From Comamonadaceae bacterium ALPHA2B (lineage in GTDB: Bacteria; Pseudomonadota; Gammaproteobacteria; Burkholderiales; Burkholderiaceae_C), in contig SCOE01000010.1 of the NCBI GenBank assembly GCA_005503065.1, positions 62,001 to 126,000 of the forward strand: a stretch of 64,000 bases of DNA. Direction: 5' to 3'. The position numbers were made by a program, and so were the translations under genes. The notes beneath the pieces are model-generated. The model ran no database searches and was not told the origin of the DNA. It saw nothing but the letters and a program-made list of their open reading frames with translations. Below, one piece after another: positions 844 through 9,327 of the stretch; position 1 is the stretch's first letter, and the number at the start of each line of letters is the position of its first letter.

Positions 844-2403
844 ATGAAAATCTTCCAGCGCGCCCAGCGTTCGCTGTTCGGGGAAATCCTGGACTGGATG
901 CTCACGCCGCTGCTGCTGCTGGTGCCGGTGAGCATCGGCGTGACCTGGCTGGTGGCCCAGGGCATCGCCAACTCGCCCTATGACCGCGCGCTGGAGCACA
1001 ACGTGCGCACGCTGGCCCGCCTGCTGCAGCGCGAGCCACCCGGCACGCCGTTCGTGCCGCCGGTGGCGCTGCGCGAGCTGCTGCGCGGCGACGACGCCGA
1101 CCACGTCTACTTCCAGATCCTCGACAGCGCCGGCGACGCCATCGCGGGCGACAGCGACCTGCCCGCGCCCAGCACGGAAGAACGGCCCGTGCCCGGCGTC
1201 GCCTACCTGCGCGATGCCCACATGCGCGGCCAGCCGGTGCGCGTGGCCTACCTGTGGCTCGAGCTGGGCGACCACGCCTCCGAAGCGGCACGCGCGCCTG
1301 CCGCCGGCGCGGGTGCAGGAGCCGCCTTCGCCCTGCAGCAGGTCGACGGCGACGCCACCGGCGCGCTGGCCGACCTCGCAGGCGCGGCACCGCGCCCGCG
1401 CGGGCTGGTGCTGGTGCAGGTGGCCGAGACGCGGGAAAAGCAGTCCGTGCTGGCCACCGAGATCATCAAGGGCGTGCTGCTGCCGCAGTTCGCCATCCTG
1501 CCGCTGGCGGTGCTGCTGATCTGGCTGGCGCTGGTGCGCGGCATCAAGCCGCTGTCGGCGGTGGAGGCGCGCATCCGCGAACGCCGGCCTGACGACCTGC
1601 GACCGCTGGACGAATCCGCGGTCCCGCTGGAGGTCGTGCCGCTGGTGTCCTCGGTCAACGAGTTGCTGGGCAAGTTGAACGACTCGATGGCCACGCAGAA
1701 GCGCTTCCTGGCCGACGCCGCCCACCAGCTCAAGACCCCGCTGGCCGGCCTGCGCATGCAGGCCGACCTGGCGCAACGCGACAACGCCGATGCCGAGGAA
1801 CTCAAGAAATCGCTCAAGCAGATCGGGCGCGCGAGCATCCGTGCCACGCACACCGTCAACCAGCTGCTGGCCCTGGCGCGGGCCGAGGGCGGCGTCGGCA
1901 CGCTCACGCGCCAGCCCTGCGACCTCGCGCGGCTGACCATCGAGGTGGTGCGCGAAATGCTGCCTCGGGCGATGGAACGGTCTCTCGACCTGGGCTACGA
2001 CGGCGCACAGCCCGGCGCCCGCGGCGTGGAGCTGCAGGGCAACGCCACGCTGCTGCGCGAGCTGATCCGCAATTTGCTGGACAACGCGATCAACTACACG
2101 CCTTCGTCGCCCGACAAGCCTGGCGTGATCACCGCCCACGTGCTCGCCGACCCCTTCGGCCACGTGCTGCTGCTGCAGGTGGAGGATTCGGGCCCGGGCA
2201 TCGCCGAGGCCGACCGCGAACTGGTCTTCGAGCCCTTCTACCGCGTGCTGGGCAACGAGGCCGACGGCTCCGGCCTGGGCCTGCCGATCGTGCGCGAGAT
2301 CGCGGGCCAGCACCGCGCGCGGGTCGAGCTGGAGGATGCGCACCCCGGGCAGCACCCGCCGGGCACGCGGGTCACGGTGCGCTTCGACACCGCGCCGGAC
2401 TGA
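844..2403 (+). CDS. Sensor histidine kinase, TctE/QseC type
   Basis: Inner-membrane kinase that phosphorylates the response regulator encoded just upstream. Seen in 519 residues: a short cytoplasmic N-terminus, a first membrane segment near residues 17-38, a periplasmic region of about 170 residues (2CSK_N-like), and a second membrane segment near 210-233. The dimerisation/phosphoacceptor helix has FLADAAHQLKTPL with His294. The ATPase domain has N-box NLLDNAINYTP, G1 EDSGPGIAE, F-box FEPFYRV and G2 GSGLGLPIV. All catalytic boxes are intact. The start at 844 is the only ATG that gives the expected membrane anchor. The stimulus is unknown; TctE relatives often respond to carboxylates. Confidence 0.93.
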   Translation: MKIFQRAQRSLFGEILDWMLTPLLLLVPVSIGVTWLVAQGIANSPYDRALEHNVRTLARLLQREPPGTPFVPPVALRELLRGDDADHVYFQILDSAGDAIAGDSDLPAPSTEERPVPGVAYLRDAHMRGQPVRVAYLWLELGDHASEAARAPAAGAGAGAAFALQQVDGDATGALADLAGAAPRPRGLVLVQVAETREKQSVLATEIIKGVLLPQFAILPLAVLLIWLALVRGIKPLSAVEARIRERRPDDLRPLDESAVPLEVVPLVSSVNELLGKLNDSMATQKRFLADAAHQLKTPLAGLRMQADLAQRDNADAEELKKSLKQIGRASIRATHTVNQLLALARAEGGVGTLTRQPCDLARLTIEVVREMLPRAMERSLDLGYDGAQPGARGVELQGNATLLRELIRNLLDNAINYTPSSPDKPGVITAHVLADPFGHVLLLQVEDSGPGIAEADRELVFEPFYRVLGNEADGSGLGLPIVREIAGQHRARVELEDAHPGQHPPGTRVTVRFDTAPD

Positions 2404-2412
2404 GCCGGCGGC

Positions 2413-2640
2413 TCAGGGCGTCGGGGCAGACGGGGCGGGGGCTGGCGTCGCGGACCCGGCGGCAGGGGCCGGCGATGCCGCCGCGGACGGCGTGCGCCGC
2501 AGCTCCAGCAACTCCGGCCGGATCTGCTGAGTGAGCCGCTGCGGCTCGCGGTCGGCCGATTCGGTCGACGCGCCGCGCGACCACAGCCAATAGCCGATGT
2601 TGGCGACGACGAGGGCGGCGAGCAGCAGGCGCAGGACCAT
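2413..2640 (-). CDS. Small membrane-anchored hypothetical protein
   Basis: A 75-residue protein with one N-terminal hydrophobic segment (LRLLLAALVVANIGYWLWS) and a C-terminal Pro/Ala-rich low-complexity tail, so probably a single-pass inner-membrane protein with the tail outside. It lies directly downstream of birA on the same strand, 24 bp after it. It converges with the kinase gene: the two stop codons are the outer ends of a TGAGCC/GGCTCA dyad at 2401-2415. Function unknown. Confidence 0.7.
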   Translation of the reverse strand: MVLRLLLAALVVANIGYWLWSRGASTESADREPQRLTQQIRPELLELRRTPSAAASPAPAAGSATPAPAPSAPTP

Positions 2641-2664
2641 GGCGGGGATTGTGCAGCGGGCGCT

Positions 2665-3477
2665 TCAGGGCAGCGTCATGTCGCGGGGCCTGACGCTGAC
2701 CTCCGAGCTATGAATCGCTTGCAGCCCGGCCGGCGTGCGCACATGCAACTCGCCGCCCGGGCCGACACCCTCGCACAAACCGGCTTGACCATCGCTGAGC
2801 ACCACCTCCCGCCCGAGCAATGCATCGCGCGCGGCGAAGCGCGGCAGCACCGGCGCGAAGCCCTGCGCCGGGAAGCGCAGCACCTCGGCCAGCAGCGGCG
2901 GCGCCAGCACCGCCAAGGCCAGCGGCGGCGTCGCGTCGGGCTGCCACTGCCGCAACCAGGCCGGCGGCGTTCGCATGGCATCGCCCTCGCGCGCGCCGAC
3001 ATTCAGGCCGATGCCGATCACCACCTGGCGGGTGTTGGCGGCGGCGCCCGGCAGCGAAGCGGTCTCTATCAGGATGCCGGCGAGCTTGCGATCCTGCACC
3101 CACAGGTCGTTGGGCCACTTGAGCTTCACGCCGGCCGTGCCTTCGGGGTCGAGCGATTCGGCCACACTCACGCCCACGGCCAGCGACAGGCCCGACCAGT
3201 CCCGCGGCGCCAGGGGCAACGCCAGCGAGAAGGTCAACGACGCGGCCGGATCGGTCGCGGCCTGGGCGCTCTGCCAGTCGCGTCCCAGGCGGCCGCGCCC
3301 CGCGGTCTGGCGTTCAGTCACGAGCAGCACGGGCCGGGCGTCGCCTGCGCGGGCACGACGCATGAGCTCGGTGTTGGTCGAATCGATGGCGTCGACGGCT
3401 TCGACGGCGATCGCGGGCTCGTGCACGGCGAGCGCGCGCCGCAGTGCATCGACCAGGGCAGGCGTCCAGGTGCTCAA
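2665..3477 (-). CDS. birA: Biotin--[acetyl-CoA-carboxylase] ligase
   Basis: Activates biotin as biotinyl-AMP and transfers it to the biotin carrier protein of acetyl-CoA carboxylase. Seen in 270 residues: the nucleotide/biotin loop GRGRLGRDW near residues 80-88, the central KLKWPNDLW motif, KLAGILIE, and the C-terminal SH3-like domain (GREVVLSDGQ). There is no N-terminal winged helix before the catalytic domain, so this is a mono-functional (class I) ligase that should not act as the biotin repressor. It abuts the SET-domain gene, whose stop is at 3478, and both are on the minus strand, suggesting co-transcription. Confidence 0.93.
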   Translation of the reverse strand: MSTWTPALVDALRRALAVHEPAIAVEAVDAIDSTNTELMRRARAGDARPVLLVTERQTAGRGRLGRDWQSAQAATDPAASLTFSLALPLAPRDWSGLSLAVGVSVAESLDPEGTAGVKLKWPNDLWVQDRKLAGILIETASLPGAAANTRQVVIGIGLNVGAREGDAMRTPPAWLRQWQPDATPPLALAVLAPPLLAEVLRFPAQGFAPVLPRFAARDALLGREVVLSDGQAGLCEGVGPGGELHVRTPAGLQAIHSSEVSVRPRDMTLP

Positions 3478-4089
3478 TCAGCCGCCCTTGCCTTTCCCGC
3501 CCTTCTTTTTCTTCTTCTTGTCCTTGCCCTTCTTGCCGGCCTTCGCGTCCTTGACCTTGCTCTTGTTTTTCTTTTTCTTCTTCTTGCCCGGCACGTCGTC
3601 GTCCTTGGGCGAGAGCAGCGTGCCGCGGCAATTCGCCGAGCCGCACCAGCACGGGAAATCCGCCAGCAGCTGCGGCGTGTAGGGCTCGTCGATGACGAGG
3701 CCGTAGTCGTAGTTCAGCTCTTCGCCGGCCGCGATGTCGCGCAGCGCCTTGATGAAGATGCGGCCGCCCTCTTCGTCGGCCTCGCAGTTGGGGTCGCAGG
3801 AGTGGTTGATCCAGCGCGCGGCGTTGCCCTTCACGCCGCCGTCGATCACGCGCTCGTCATCGATGTGGAAGTAGAAGGTGTGGTTGGGCTGCGCCGGGTC
3901 GTGCGGGTGGCGGCGCAGCGCCTCCTCCCAGTCGATCACCTCGCCCTTGTATTCGATGAGCCGCTCGCCCCGGGGGATGTCCTGCACGGCGAACACCCCG
4001 TTGCCGTGGACCCCCGAGCGCCGCGTCTGGATGCGGCGTCCGCCCGCGGGCGGCGAAGTCGATGGCGAGGAAGGGGATTTGGAAGGCAT
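3478..4089 (-). CDS. SET-domain protein-lysine methyltransferase with poly-Lys tail
   Basis: Predicted S-adenosylmethionine-dependent lysine methyltransferase of 203 residues. Seen: a SET core from about residue 20 (GVHGNGVFAVQDIPRGE), the AdoMet/pseudoknot motif RWINHSCDPN at 92-101, the catalytic ELNYDYG motif, and a post-SET-like cysteine cluster (CWCGSANCRG). The last ~35 residues are nearly pure Lys/Gly (runs of KKKKKK), as in DNA- or RNA-binding tails. I chose ATG 4089 because the SET fold begins soon after it; the frame stays open far upstream only because it runs antisense to topB. It is divergent from topB, whose product has its own Lys-rich linker, a possible substrate (inference). 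Confidence 0.88.
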   Translation of the reverse strand: MPSKSPSSPSTSPPAGGRRIQTRRSGVHGNGVFAVQDIPRGERLIEYKGEVIDWEEALRRHPHDPAQPNHTFYFHIDDERVIDGGVKGNAARWINHSCDPNCEADEEGGRIFIKALRDIAAGEELNYDYGLVIDEPYTPQLLADFPCWCGSANCRGTLLSPKDDDVPGKKKKKKNKSKVKDAKAGKKGKDKKKKKKGGKGKGG

Positions 4090-4110
4090 CGCCGAGTTCT
4101 GATAGTTTGA

Positions 4111-4163
4111 ATATGCACACATGCGCGCGTGTACACACGTACGTACGTGCGTGTGCACGCGCG
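4111..4163. other. 53-bp perfect alternating purine-pyrimidine tract (Z-DNA candidate)
   Basis: Every base from 4111 (ATATGCACAC) to 4163 (CACGCGCG) alternates purine and pyrimidine without a break. It mixes CG, CA/TG and TA steps and contains short dyads such as CGTACGTACG. Such tracts flip to left-handed Z-DNA under negative supercoiling. It lies in the divergent promoter region between the SET gene and topB, and starts 22 bp upstream of the SET start codon. Confidence 0.9.
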
Positions 4164-4266
4164 AGAGGCGCAGAGTATAGAGAGCACCCCGGAGCCCTGC
4201 CGGCGACGCCCGCCCCCATGAGGGGCCGGCCCCCTCAGGCCGGGGCGAACCCTTGAGAGACCCCAG

Positions 4267-7224
4267 ATGACGAAGACTTTGGTGATTGCGGAGAAGCCCT
4301 CGGTGGCCCAGGACATCGTGCGCGCGCTCACGCCGGTGGCCGGCAAGTTCGACAAGCACGACGAGCATTTCGAGAACGAGCAGTACGTGGTGACCAGCGC
4401 CGTGGGCCACCTGGTGGAGATCCAGGCCCCTGAGCAGTACGACGTCAAGCGCGGCAAGTGGAGCTTCGCGCACCTGCCGGTGATCCCGCCGCACTTCGAC
4501 CTCAAGCCGGTGGACAAGACCAAGACGCGCCTGAATGCCGTCGTCAAGCAGGCCAAGCGCAAGGACGTGACGCAATTGGTCAATGCCTGCGACGCGGGCC
4601 GCGAGGGCGAGCTGATCTTCCGCCTGATCGAGCAGTACGCCGGCGGCGCCAAGCCGTTGGGCAAGCCGGTCAAGCGGCTGTGGCTGCAGTCGATGACGCC
4701 GCAGGCGATCCGCGACGGCTTCGAGTCGCTGCGCACGGAGCAGCAGATGCAGGGCCTGGCCGACGCCGCGCGATCGCGCTCCGAGGCCGACTGGCTGGTC
4801 GGCATCAACGGCACGCGGGCCATGACGGCCTTCAACTCGCGCGACGGCGGCTTCTTTCTGACCACGGTGGGTCGGGTGCAGACCCCCACGCTGTCGGTGG
4901 TGGTGGAACGCGAAGAACAGATCCGCAAGTTCGTGAGCCGCGACTACTGGGAGATCCACGGCATCTTCGGCGCCGAGGCCGGCCAGTACCCGGGCAAGTA
5001 CTTCGATCCGGCCTGGAAGAAGGCCAGCGCGCCGCTGCTGCCCAACGGCGAGCCCGACCCCGAGCAGCGCGCCGACCGCGTGTGGAGCGAAGCCGAGGCG
5101 CGTGCGATTGCCGACGCCGCCCGCGGCCAGCCCGCGACGGTGACGGAGGAAAGCAAGCCGACGACCCAGGCGTCGCCGCTGCTGTTCGACCTCACCTCCC
5201 TGCAACGGGAGGCCAACAGCCGCTTCGGCTTCTCGGCCAAGACCACGCTGGCACTGGCGCAGTCGCTGTACGAACGCCACAAGGCGCTGACCTACCCCCG
5301 GACCGACTCGCGCGCGCTGCCCGAGGACTACCTGCCCGTGGTCAAGCAGACGATGGGCATGCTGGCCACGAGCGGCATGAAGCATCTGGCGCCCTTCGCG
5401 CAGCAGGCCATCGACGGCAACTACGTCAAGCCGAGCAAGCGCATCTTCGACAACGCGAAGGTGTCGGACCACTTCGCCATCATCCCCACCCTCCAGGCGC
5501 CCAGCGGCCTGTCGGATGCGGAACAGCGCCTGTACGACTTCGTGGTGCGGCGCTTCCTGTCGGTGTTCTTCCCCAGCGCCGAATTCCAGGTCACGACGCG
5601 CATCAGCACCGTGGAACGCGATGCGAAGAAGTATGCCTTCCGCTCCGATGGCAAGGTGCTGGTCAAGCCGGGCTGGATGGCCATCTACGGCAAGGAAGCC
5701 GTGAGCGAGGACGACGAGAAGGACGGCAAGAACCTGGTGCCCGTGAAGCCGGGCGAGCGGGTGAAGGTCGATTCGGTGGAACCCAAGGGCCTGAAGACGC
5801 GCCCGCCGGCCCGCTATTCCGAAGCGACGCTGCTGGGCGCCATGGAAGGTGCCGGCAAGACCATCGACGACGACGAACTGCGCGAAGCCATGCAGGAGAA
5901 GGGCCTGGGCACGCCGGCGACGCGCGCGGCGATCATCGAAGGGTTGCTCAACGAGAAGTACATGCTGCGCGAAGGCCGCGAGCTGATCCCCACCGCCAAG
6001 GCCTTCCAGCTGATGACGCTGCTGCGCGGCCTGGGCGTGGAGGAACTGTCCAAGGCCGAGCTGACGGGCGAGTGGGAATACAAGCTCGCCCAGATGGAGA
6101 AGGGCCAGCTCAGCCGCGACGCCTTCATGCGCGAGATCGCGGCCATGACCGAGCACATCGTCAAGAAGGCCAAGGAGTACGACCGCGACACGGTGCCGGG
6201 CGATTACGCGACGCTCGAGGCCCCCTGCCCCAACTGCGGCGGCATCGTGCGCGAGAACTACCGGCGCTATGCCTGCACCGGCAAGAGCGGCAGCGGCACC
6301 GACGCCTGCGGCTTCTCCTTCACCAAGTCGCCGGCGGGCCGCACCTTCGAGATCGCCGAAGCCGAACAGCTCGTGCGCGACAAGCACATCGGGCCGCTGG
6401 AAGGCTTCCGCTCCAAGGCCGGTTGGCCCTTCGTGGCCGAGATCCGCCTGGCCTTCAGCGACGAAGACCAGAACTGGAAGCTGGAGTTCGACTTCGGCGA
6501 CGACGGCAAGGACCCGGCCGAGACCGGCGAGATCGTCGACTTCAGCGGCCAGGAAAGCCTCGGGCCCTGCCCCAAGTGCAAGGGCCGCGTGTTCGAGTTC
6601 GGCGCCAACTACATCTGCGAGCACTCGGTGCCGACGCCGCAGCAGGCCGTGCCCAGCTGCGACTTCAAGACCGGCAAGGTGATCCTGCAGCAGCCGGTGG
6701 AGCCCGAGCAGGTGCGCAAGCTGCTGGCAGAGGGCAAGACCGACCTGCTCGACAAGTTCGTCAGCATGCGCACGCGCCGCACCTTCAAGGCCTTCCTGGT
6801 GTGGAATGCCGAGGAAGGCAAGGTGACCTTCGAGTTCGAGCCGCGTACCAGCAAGTTCCCCCCGCGCAAGACCTTCGCGGCCAAGGCGGCGCCGGCGAAG
6901 AAGACCGCGGCAGCCAGGAAGGCGCCGGCGGCCAAGAGCGCACCGGCCGCCAAGAAAGCGGCGGCCCCCAAGGCGCCCCGCAAGGCCGCGGCCGGCACGG
7001 GCCTCACGCCCAGCGCCGAACTCGCGGCCGTGATCGGCACCGAGCCGGTGCTGCGCACCGAGGCGACCAAGAAGCTGTGGGACTACATCAAGGCCCAGGG
7101 CCTGCAGGACCCGGCGGACAAGCGCAGCATCCGCGCCGACGCCAAGCTGCAGGCCGTGTTCGGCAAGCCCAGCGCGACCATGTTCGAGCTGGCCGGCCTG
7201 CTGGGCAAGCACCTGGCCAAGTGA
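4267..7224 (+). CDS. topB: DNA topoisomerase III with H1-like linker and C-terminal SWIB domain
   Basis: Type IA topoisomerase that relaxes and decatenates DNA through a 5'-phosphotyrosine. Seen in 985 residues: N-terminal Toprim domain (LVIAEKPSVAQDI, with CDAGREGELIF for metal binding), active-site Tyr343 in ALTYPRTDSRAL, EGAGKTIDDDELR, then two zinc-ribbon-like Cys clusters (CPNCGG; CPKCKG). Residues ~875-912 are a Lys/Ala/Pro repeat like a histone H1 tail. Residues ~913-985 read as a SWIB/MDM2 domain (LTPSAELAAVIG to FELAGLLGKHL). E. coli TopB is about 650 residues, so roughly 300 are added here. The SWIB domain and the divergent SET gene are both eukaryote-like chromatin parts, as in Chlamydia. 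Confidence 0.95.
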   Translation: MTKTLVIAEKPSVAQDIVRALTPVAGKFDKHDEHFENEQYVVTSAVGHLVEIQAPEQYDVKRGKWSFAHLPVIPPHFDLKPVDKTKTRLNAVVKQAKRKDVTQLVNACDAGREGELIFRLIEQYAGGAKPLGKPVKRLWLQSMTPQAIRDGFESLRTEQQMQGLADAARSRSEADWLVGINGTRAMTAFNSRDGGFFLTTVGRVQTPTLSVVVEREEQIRKFVSRDYWEIHGIFGAEAGQYPGKYFDPAWKKASAPLLPNGEPDPEQRADRVWSEAEARAIADAARGQPATVTEESKPTTQASPLLFDLTSLQREANSRFGFSAKTTLALAQSLYERHKALTYPRTDSRALPEDYLPVVKQTMGMLATSGMKHLAPFAQQAIDGNYVKPSKRIFDNAKVSDHFAIIPTLQAPSGLSDAEQRLYDFVVRRFLSVFFPSAEFQVTTRISTVERDAKKYAFRSDGKVLVKPGWMAIYGKEAVSEDDEKDGKNLVPVKPGERVKVDSVEPKGLKTRPPARYSEATLLGAMEGAGKTIDDDELREAMQEKGLGTPATRAAIIEGLLNEKYMLREGRELIPTAKAFQLMTLLRGLGVEELSKAELTGEWEYKLAQMEKGQLSRDAFMREIAAMTEHIVKKAKEYDRDTVPGDYATLEAPCPNCGGIVRENYRRYACTGKSGSGTDACGFSFTKSPAGRTFEIAEAEQLVRDKHIGPLEGFRSKAGWPFVAEIRLAFSDEDQNWKLEFDFGDDGKDPAETGEIVDFSGQESLGPCPKCKGRVFEFGANYICEHSVPTPQQAVPSCDFKTGKVILQQPVEPEQVRKLLAEGKTDLLDKFVSMRTRRTFKAFLVWNAEEGKVTFEFEPRTSKFPPRKTFAAKAAPAKKTAAARKAPAAKSAPAAKKAAAPKAPRKAAAGTGLTPSAELAAVIGTEPVLRTEATKKLWDYIKAQGLQDPADKRSIRADAKLQAVFGKPSATMFELAGLLGKHLAK

Positions 7225-7251: not shown

Positions 7252-7875
7252 TCAGTGGACGGCCGGCCGGCGCGGCGGCGGCGGGGTGCGGTCCGTCACC
7301 TCGATCCAGCACGCGAAGAGCGGGTGCCCGTCGACGATCACCGGCGGCGCGGCGCGGTGGGCCCTGAAGCCCTCGCGCCGCAGCAGGCGTTCGATGCCCA
7401 GTGGCGAGACGGTGATCATGCGCTGCACACCGTGGGCGCGGGCCACCGTGATGGCCTCCTCGAGCAGCCCCACCGCCACGGGGGAGGAGAACTGCCCCAT
7501 CGCGCCCTGGCCCGTGGCCGTGAAGTCGACGGCGGCAAAACGCGACAGCTCCCACACCAGCGGATCGCGCGGCGGCGTCGCGCCCCCTAGCAGCTGAGGG
7601 AAGACCTCGCTCAGGAGGTACGGGCTGGTGGTGGGCAGCAGGCGTGCGGTGCCGACGATCTCCTGCTTCGCATCCCGGGCTGCGAGGTACAGCGTGCCGG
7701 CATGGTCGAACTGGTCGCGCTCGCGCCCCGGGGGCGTGTCGAGCTCCCAGCCCAGCATCTCGACGAAGACCTTGTAGCGGTACTGCTCGACGCTCTGGAG
7801 CAGTTGGGCACCGAGTTCATGGGGGCGGCCGGAGAGTACGTCCATCTGATTAATCCCGAGGTTGTATCGGGACAT
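7252..7875 (-). CDS. Acyl-homoserine-lactone synthase (LuxI family)
   Basis: Makes an N-acyl-homoserine lactone signal from S-adenosylmethionine and acyl-ACP. Seen: YRYKVFVEMLGW near residues 32-43 with the conserved Arg, Phe and Trp, then DQFD, the GTARLLPTT core, SEVFP and WELSRFA. All are hallmark LuxI positions. The start shown gives 207 residues; ATG 7845 (197 residues) is equally possible and would place the inverted repeat at 7854-7872 just upstream. The RsaM-like gene precedes it by 44 bp on the same strand and luxR lies beyond, so this is a complete sensing locus. The acyl chain length cannot be told from the sequence. Confidence 0.93.
   Translation of the reverse strand: MSRYNLGINQMDVLSGRPHELGAQLLQSVEQYRYKVFVEMLGWELDTPPGRERDQFDHAGTLYLAARDAKQEIVGTARLLPTTSPYLLSEVFPQLLGGATPPRDPLVWELSRFAAVDFTATGQGAMGQFSSPVAVGLLEEAITVARAHGVQRMITVSPLGIERLLRREGFRAHRAAPPVIVDGHPLFACWIEVTDRTPPPPRRPAVH
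7854..7872. promoter_or_regulatory. Inverted repeat TCCCGA-N7-TCGGGA near luxI start
   Basis: Perfect 6-bp arms at 7854-7859 and 7867-7872. It overlaps the first codons if luxI starts at 7875, or lies 9 bp upstream of an ATG at 7845. Size and position fit a LuxR-type box, but it does not match a classical lux-box sequence. Low confidence. Confidence 0.35.
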
Positions 7876-8613: not shown

Positions 8614-9327
8614 GTGCCGCCGTCCACTGACCACCTGCTCACCATGCTGGATCGCGCCACCAGCGAGCAGGCGGTGTTCGACGCCCTGCGCGCCGAAACG
8701 CAGCGGCTGGGCTTCGAGCATTGCGCCTACGGCCTGCGACTGGCCGTACCGGTGTCCAACCCGAAGGTGATCACCCTCAACGACTACCCGAGCTCGTGGC
8801 AGGCGCGCTACCTCGAGGCGGGCTATCTGCACATCGATCCGAGCGTGCGGCATGGCCGGCAGAGCCAGAGCCCGCTCGTCTGGACCGACACCATGTTCGC
8901 GTCCGCGCGGCAGATGTGGGACGAGGCCAGGGACCATGGATTGCGCGTGGGATGGGCGCAGTCCAGCCTCGATGGTTTCGGCGTGGGCGGCATGCTCACG
9001 CTGTCGCGCTCGCATGAGCCGCTGACCGCGCGCGAACTGCTCGACAAGGAGAGCGCCATGCGCTGGCTCGTGCAGGCCGCCCACCTGTCGCTCTCGCGGC
9101 TCATGAAGCCGCGCTATGCGGTCCAGCCCGAAACGCCGCTCACGCCCCGCGAACTGGAGGTGCTCAAGTGGACGGCCGATGGCAAGACGGCACCGGACAT
9201 CGGCGACATCCTGGGCATTTCGGTGCCTACGGTGAACTTTCACATCAAGAACGTGGTGCACAAGATGAAGGCCGCCAACAAGACCGCGGCCGTGGTCCAG
9301 GCCCTGATGTCGGGCCTGCTCAACTGA
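8614..9327 (+). CDS. LuxR-family autoinducer-responsive transcription factor
   Basis: AHL receptor and DNA-binding regulator, 237 residues. Seen: an N-terminal autoinducer-binding domain with the conserved WxxxY and DP positions (SSWQARYLEAGYLHIDPSV), VWTD, and GFGVGGMLTLSRS. The C-terminal HTH has LTPRELEVLKWTADGKTAPDIG, then VNFHIKNVVHKM. The start shown is GTG 8614; ATG 8644 (MLDRAT) would remove only ten residues and cannot be excluded. The gene is divergent from the RsaM-like/luxI pair, so it is the cognate receptor by position. Neighbouring unknown genes on the right may be among its targets (inference). Confidence 0.93.
   Translation: MPPSTDHLLTMLDRATSEQAVFDALRAETQRLGFEHCAYGLRLAVPVSNPKVITLNDYPSSWQARYLEAGYLHIDPSVRHGRQSQSPLVWTDTMFASARQMWDEARDHGLRVGWAQSSLDGFGVGGMLTLSRSHEPLTARELLDKESAMRWLVQAAHLSLSRLMKPRYAVQPETPLTPRELEVLKWTADGKTAPDIGDILGISVPTVNFHIKNVVHKMKAANKTAAVVQALMSGLLN

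Follow-up and report, generated by a model that had tools for sequence, protein, structure and literature searches.

In the window analysed here, a stretch of 64,000 nucleotides from contig SCOE01000010.1 of Comamonadaceae bacterium ALPHA2B, two genes lie head to head: a gene for a SET-domain protein lysine methyltransferase (3478..4089, minus strand, 203 amino acids; assigned by Pfam, alignment and structure match) and topB, encoding a DNA topoisomerase III with a C-terminal SWIB domain (4267..7224, plus strand, 985 amino acids; assigned by Pfam and NCBIfam). Their starts diverge across a gap of 177 base pairs (bp), in agreement with the head-to-head arrangement given in the initial annotation. 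The gap carries ATATGCACACATGCGCGCGTGTACACACGTACGTACGTGCGTGTGCACGCGCG at 4111-4163, an unbroken 53-bp alternation of purines and pyrimidines (RY) that is predicted to be Z-DNA-prone and is the sole RY run of at least 24 bp in the genome. This tract, missed by the initial annotation, is the more interesting object at the locus. Here, we tentatively propose that it is a natural Z-DNA-prone regulatory element which would tie topB transcription to superhelicity, a proposal drawn from sequence that we regard as a real possibility still somewhat short of probable.

Results

An alternating tract found once in the genome

The second-longest RY run in the window is 16 bp. A search for a 24-bp RY pattern gives 15 matches in the window, where shuffles give 0.03; all 15 fall inside the tract, and they are also the only ones in the entire 6.0-Mb genome. 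In 2000 dinucleotide shuffles of the gap, the longest RY run reached 21 bp at most, against the 53 observed. A chance origin is rejected by the window count, the shuffles and the 24-bp pattern count, and a genome-wide surplus of RY patterns by the whole-genome counts; in beta-proteobacteria, Burkholderia among them, RY patterns are reported to be suppressed when a realistic null is used (PMC4060949). Two other candidates were also discarded: a known RNA family at the tract (five matches in 3900-4400, with E up to 1, all far under the gathering scores) and a cruciform or hairpin, inverted repeats not being in excess.

In a one-segment model of a 5-kb domain (2000-7000), with assumed B-Z energies, the predicted probability that the tract is in the Z form is 0.58 at a sigma of -0.04 and 0.97 at -0.045, with all other sites in the 5 kb staying at or below 0.017. 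Having a long RY run and a predicted flip at physiological superhelicity, the tract can be classed, as far as this model goes, as Z-DNA-forming.

Pairing of SET and topB across genomes

A SET match is present in 112 of 120 genomes of the family, and SET and topB are head to head in all 108 in which SET and a topB start stand on one fetched piece; the gap counts omit the other four (G017, G043, G065 and G110), whose fetched pieces hold no topB start, and on a reading of its locus G017 also has SET head to head with topB. The distance from SET residue 20 to the topB start is at most 400 bp in 101 of the 108, 400-1000 bp in 6 and 8 kb in 1. The arrangement is the same at 80 of 80 loci in a set of named genomes, which overlaps the 108 by at least one genome. 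A survey of the gene pair, as called for by the initial annotation, thus finds it well beyond the source genome.

Elsewhere in the order, 4 of the 32 SET pieces fetched from other families have topB next to SET; all four come from a single family, f6, and carry the two genes tail to tail. These f6 pieces (L156, L163, L164 and L174) have neither an RY tract nor SWIB. SET also lies about 4-17 kb from topB in four other-family genomes (G176, G216, G256 and G259), and about 12 kb from it in two more (G150 and G194) if the contig is circular, so that the neighbourhood may be older than its head-to-head form. That SET and topB belong together is supported by these observations.

The tract at topB across the family

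The longest RY run in the gap has a median of 23.5 bp among the 108 genomes, being at least 16 bp in 85, at least 18 in 80, at least 20 in 70 and at least 24 in 54, and in 81 of 107 gaps the observed run was reached by at most 1 in 100 dinucleotide shuffles. Runs of at least 24 bp occur anywhere in 72 of 120 family genomes when both phases are counted (67 of 120 when one is). Where such a run goes with a readable gap (69 genomes), 54 have the run in the gap, and 38 of those have it nowhere else. At the 80 named loci the gap run has a median of 25 bp and is the longest of the piece in 72. In G017 and G065, which stand outside the gap counts, the RY runs ahead of topB measure 29 and 23 bp. Where the perfect run is short, the gap in many cases has an interrupted alternation at that position, and some gaps (e.g. 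L008, L107, L111 and L123) have little alternation or none.

Alternation of at least 0.8 stands before the right-hand motif described below in 76 of 104 anchored gaps and after it in 1 of 75 (104 of 107 gaps were anchored on the motif, and where several anchors were available the one with most alternation before it was chosen). Upstream of 26 other-family topB genes, the best-scoring such loci, no tract was seen, the longest RY run being 12 bp at most with a median of 8. Nor was a link between tract and SWIB seen in the family, with median runs of 19 bp in 31 SWIB genomes and 25 bp in 43 without SWIB.

Eight family genomes have no SET match. Five of them have a readable topB start (G024, G026, G038, G073 and G093), and the other three (G057, G089 and G102) have no topB start to read. 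RY runs of 21 and 17 bp are kept at topB in G024 and G073, and G038 has interrupted alternation with a longest run of 11 bp. The motif ATTGTA is retained in G024, G026, G038 and G073, where a BirA-like frame, recognised by eye, faces topB (L180, L181, L182 and L184). Because tract and motif can be retained without SET, the element can outlive SET. It would be an attribute of topB together with the SET-birA transcript that opposes it, and not of SET by itself; genomes that have lost SET but partly kept the tract strengthen the link to topB and weaken that to SET.

Long RY runs at seven other places in relatives were also inspected, one of them lying in a His/Thr-repeat reading frame (L278 2131-2192). 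The runs at L278 2131-2192 and L277 2234-2267 are CACACG-type repeats, so that RY tracts of this kind would have arisen in another way. In the frames next to the seven places we saw no topoisomerase by eye, no family search having been made there.

Conservation of alternation rather than of sequence

We compared 33 pairs of related gaps, picked by flank similarity, in which the partner's tract was unconstrained and a tract was still required in the reference. Substitutions within the tract comprise 60 transitions and 14 transversions (of 74), against 228 and 329 (of 557) in the flanks (Fisher P 4e-11), and tract indels are of even length in 34 of 45 cases (even:odd 34:11), against 113 of 288 (113:175) in the flanks (P 7e-6). 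Where both partners have a tract (31 pairs), the ratio of transitions to transversions is 58:7 against 226:342, although requiring a long tract in both partners favours this result. The TA step, the least Z-favouring of the pyrimidine-purine steps, is depleted in 114 distinct tracts (79 against 119.6, standard deviation 8.0, in alternation-keeping shuffles), the AT step is not depleted, and inverted repeats are not enriched in the same 114 tracts (6.08 against 6.18). The rarity of transversions, the even indels and the depletion of TA argue that conservation bears on alternation and on steps favourable to Z-DNA, more than on a given sequence or palindrome.

Promoter-like motifs on both sides of the tract

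In the source genome, the element TGATAGTTT at 4100-4108 (plus strand), 2 bp before the tract, is proposed as an extended -10 of topB (TG-A-TAGTTT). It agrees in position and form with the element left of the tract in many relatives, an extended -10-like TGnTAnnTT or TTTGGGTACATTGAA directed toward topB, which sometimes has TTGACA 16 bp upstream (L120, L074). On the right, ATT[GC]TA occurs within 60 nucleotides of the tract at 81 of 85 loci, and lies 7-11 nucleotides from it in 55 of those 81; its letters are fixed by the search pattern. The right-hand motif is often GGATTGTAGG, which reads TACAAT on the SET strand. The source genome is one of the four loci without ATT[GC]TA and has AGTATA at that place, giving a proposed SET-birA -10 of TATACT (4174..4179, minus strand), 10 bp from the tract, where most relatives have TACAAT. 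The strong recurrence of GGATTGTAGG by the tract (4174-4180 in the window, and in relatives), with no -35 partner, leaves room for it to be more than a promoter element.

The SET protein and its neighbour

The SET domain (3700..4005, minus strand; residues 29-130 of 203) matches Pfam SET with an E of 8e-26, and an alignment of 14 sequences shows no variation at NHxC, Y129 or the post-SET cysteines. With the domain, NHxC, the catalytic Tyr region and the post-SET Cys all in place, the SET domain is, to judge by its sequence, complete. The nearest solved structure is the MLL1/KMT2A SET domain (chain 7u5v, E 2e-25), and the sole NCBIfam match, to the LegAS4/AnkI model, scores 42.7 bits, far below the cut-off of 550. 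The C-terminal tail (3481..3588, minus strand) is Lys-rich from about residue 168, so that the SET protein with a poly-Lys tail of the initial annotation is borne out. Such a tail is not conserved family-wide: at least 10 Lys are found in the tails of 36 of 179 SET pieces, some of these from one genome, with a median of 2 Lys, and the Lys-rich tail is a lineage addition. The nearest named locus, in Xenophilus aerolatus DSM 19424, has a SET protein 94% identical and an identical 53-bp tract, which makes Xenophilus (Comamonadaceae) the most likely genus of the window.

Immediately 3' of SET on the same strand, a profile match identifies a biotin-protein ligase (BirA-type) gene (2665..3477, minus strand), and the gene order suggests that SET and birA may be one transcript. 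The birA-type frame starts right at the SET end, with a TTG start in the frame listing. Two more SET-domain matches are present in the same genome (G000), on contigs C36 and C45 (L002, L003, L037 and L038); the C36 protein, a frame of 174 amino acids, has no Lys-rich tail.

TopB and the distribution of SWIB

TopB matches Topoisom_bac (E 2e-108), Toprim, two stretches of Toprim_Crpt and SWIB in Pfam, and the NCBIfam model NF011313 (PRK14724) covers it at full length (model positions 1-988 of 988; 1939.5 bits against a cut-off of 1088). The Toprim and type IA domains, and a TopB model over its cut-off, identify it by sequence as a topoisomerase III. The SWIB domain (7006..7215, plus strand; residues 914-983) scores 84.8 bits against a gathering score of 25 (E 4e-24), in line with the SWIB match foreseen at the C-terminus, and it follows a Lys/Ala-rich, H1-like linker (6874..7002, plus strand; about residues 870-912) that resembles the C-termini of relatives, so the linker-SWIB architecture first read from the letters is confirmed. 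As a protein architecture the TopB-SWIB fusion is already known, since NCBIfam has a named model for it. Within the family, SWIB is fused to 31 of 74 complete TopB proteins and is a lineage addition, while Lys/Ala-rich TopB C-termini are common both with SWIB and without it. A SWIB protein of some kind occurs in 118 of 120 family genomes, and the parts therefore coexist in a cell more widely than they are fused.

The same genome also has a free protein of 158 amino acids (L034 1495-1971, minus strand; G000 contig C18), in which a SWIB domain comes after AKKAAP-type H1-like repeats. It is a plausible SET substrate, as good a candidate as the TopB tail. The chlamydial Hc1 family has no matches in the source genome.

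Further along the window, an autoinducer-synthase (LuxI-type) gene adjoins topB (7252-7875, minus strand), and a 237-amino-acid frame at 8614-9327 (plus strand) is LuxR-like by eye, with no family search made.

Discussion

How might an alternating tract between two promoters act? The essential property of the proposed element would be purine-pyrimidine alternation, typically over about 18-56 bp. The two -10 motifs, one directed to topB and the other to SET-birA, appear to point at one another from either side of the tract, and from their positions polymerases starting at either would transcribe the tract first. In the simple model used here, negative superhelicity would flip it from B-DNA to left-handed Z-DNA near a sigma of -0.04. 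Polymerase is not expected to get past Z-DNA that lies immediately after a start site, and the Z-form tract may thus halt newly started RNA polymerase at both promoters. Each passage of a polymerase would leave underwound DNA over the tract, so that the opposite promoter would be shut until a topoisomerase relaxes it, and transcription of topB and SET-birA would thereby depend on how the DNA is twisted locally and on topoisomerase activity. The SET enzyme, for its part, would probably methylate lysines of Lys/Ala-rich H1-like sequences, whether in the tail of TopB or in the free SWIB protein with H1-like repeats. We are more doubtful about extending this to a family-wide B-Z switch, in which face-to-face topB and SET-operon promoters share a start region selected for its capacity to take the left-handed form, and twist gates the expression of a twist-changing enzyme and of a possible modifier of its tail, but we keep it in view as a possibility.

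Several observations weigh against the proposed Z-DNA switch. A block at high negative superhelicity would reduce an enzyme whose action is to remove negative supercoils, contrary to what simple homeostasis would call for. A strict sigma-70 consensus scan calls no promoter in 3950-4400, which leaves the promoter reading to rest on comparison between species. The right-hand motif has no conserved -35, and simple best-hexamer scoring, without a shuffle control, places the top site toward SET on the right of the tract in only 47 of 70 gaps and the top site toward topB on its left in 60 of 70. Runs of at least 24 bp are found only outside the gap in 15 of the 69 genomes, gap runs are as short as 6-9 bp in 7 of the 108 that retain the pair, and two of the five readable SET-less genomes (G026 and G093) have no tract. 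From these short runs and the two losses it follows that the tract is not indispensable. Finally, in the topB sense 80% of tract purines are G and 62% of pyrimidines are C, a strand asymmetry that Z-DNA alone does not predict.

One alternative, compatible with the proposed switch, is the chromatin module of the initial annotation, in which SET methylates the Lys-rich TopB tail or an H1-like protein. The SET and post-SET residues are intact, TopB tails are Lys/Ala-rich, and the genes stay paired in 108 of 108 genomes and are adjacent in another orientation in the four f6 pieces. According to a review (PMC3980110), cpnSET of C. pneumoniae methylates the H1-like Hc1, whereas NUE of C. trachomatis did not methylate Hc1. 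Of this module, the part that stood is that the two genes belong together. What did not is the expectation that SET, SWIB and H1 parts would consistently occur together: SWIB is on 31 of 74 TopB proteins while the pair stays, Hc1 has no matches, and at least 10 Lys mark only 36 of 179 SET tails. Because neither SWIB nor the Lys-rich SET tail is general, the pair cannot be held together by SET plus SWIB, and SET can be lost while TopB stays. The common occurrence of Lys/Ala-rich TopB C-termini, with or without SWIB, means that the TopB tail may still be a target of methylation. We therefore see the module as conceivable, though rather unlikely.

Another option is that the tract binds a protein (a regulator, TopB or the SET protein) that would recognise its shape or its purine/pyrimidine class, with Z-DNA being unnecessary. 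Conserved motifs flank the tract on both sides, a property is conserved rather than a sequence, and the 38 of 69 genomes with runs of at least 24 bp only here suggest a dedicated site. However, the tracts differ greatly in length and show no evident fixed core or spacing, unlike the usual operator, and the depletion of TA steps fits B-Z energetics. On this evidence a binding site seems improbable to us.

The strand asymmetry bears on a further explanation, that the tract acts in early transcription or in RNA, either through YG steps that cause promoter-proximal pauses or through overlapping 5' leaders that pair and so bring about interference between the topB and SET transcripts. The published pause consensus is G-10, Y-1, G+1, and a tract of alternating G and pyrimidine meets it at every second base. 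Both leaders would contain the tract if the -10 motifs are correct, and a role in RNA or transcription would suit the bias to G(T/C) on the topB sense strand; the G share of purines is 0.90 in SWIB-less genomes and 0.76 in SWIB genomes. The G bias of the topB strand, being unexplained by Z-DNA, leaves room for such a role. Yet the hairpin excess is weak (mean z -0.26, standard error 0.10), inverted repeats are not enriched, and complementary leaders arise from any sequence, so that alternation would be unnecessary, and we judge an early-transcription or RNA role unlikely. Least of all do we favour a functionless, degenerate dinucleotide microsatellite kept by slippage and transition-biased mutation: slippage and deamination also give even indels and an excess of transitions, and the pair can persist with a short tract or none, but the tract recurs at one locus family-wide while being rare elsewhere in the same genomes, was not seen upstream of the 26 other-family topB genes and in many cases is not a simple repeat, which makes this origin very improbable.

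The role of Z-DNA in bacteria is an old open question and, to our knowledge, its function there has mostly been studied with engineered inserts. The tract described here would be a natural element at a topoisomerase gene, unique in the source genome and held at one locus family-wide while its sequence drifts within the RY pattern. Point changes that keep the alternation and those that break it should behave differently, making a direct test possible. Apart from the tract, the locus also reveals a SET methyltransferase stably paired with topoisomerase III far beyond the lineages with a SWIB fusion.

Comparison with known systems

As to the proteins, TopB-SWIB is the same as the protein described by NF011313 (PRK14724), which it matches over the full length; that model covers the protein only, and the SET neighbour and the RY tract lie outside it. 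A chromatin complex of SET, SWIB and topoisomerase has already been proposed for Chlamydiae (PMC6426960), and the same three parts are seen there in the SET proteins NUE and cpnSET, a SWIB protein and a topoisomerase I-SWIB fusion (PMC6426960, PMC3980110). SWIB is fused to topoisomerase I in Chlamydiae and to topoisomerase III in the source genome, and the source genome differs in having SET head to head with topB across an RY tract. BtSET of B. thailandensis is counted as a LegAS4-like bacterial SET in PMC3980110. The source-genome SET has the MLL1/KMT2A type as its closest solved relative and, unlike LegAS4-like SET, sits by birA and topB, with no effector features sought or claimed.

As to regulation, no published Z-DNA or RY element at topB was found in titles or abstract openings, a weak negative given the many subscription papers outside that coverage, and within a similarly partial coverage no literature was found that joins Z-DNA, Burkholderia and topoisomerase III. 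In Dickeya, inhibiting topoisomerase I had no detected effect on topB (PMC9458453).

The logic proposed for topB, with a topoisomerase gene controlled by DNA twist, is the same as that of gyrA, gyrB and topA. Their promoters are supercoiling-responsive, and we know of no RY tract at any of them. The closest precedent for the tract itself is the work of Peck and Wang from 1985, who reportedly found that Z-DNA formed by an engineered alternating insert blocks bacterial RNA polymerase in vitro under the control of negative supercoiling. The two systems would be alike in having an alternating tract downstream of the start and control by negative supercoiling; they differ in that the insert of Peck and Wang was engineered, whereas the topB tract is natural and stands at one locus across a family.

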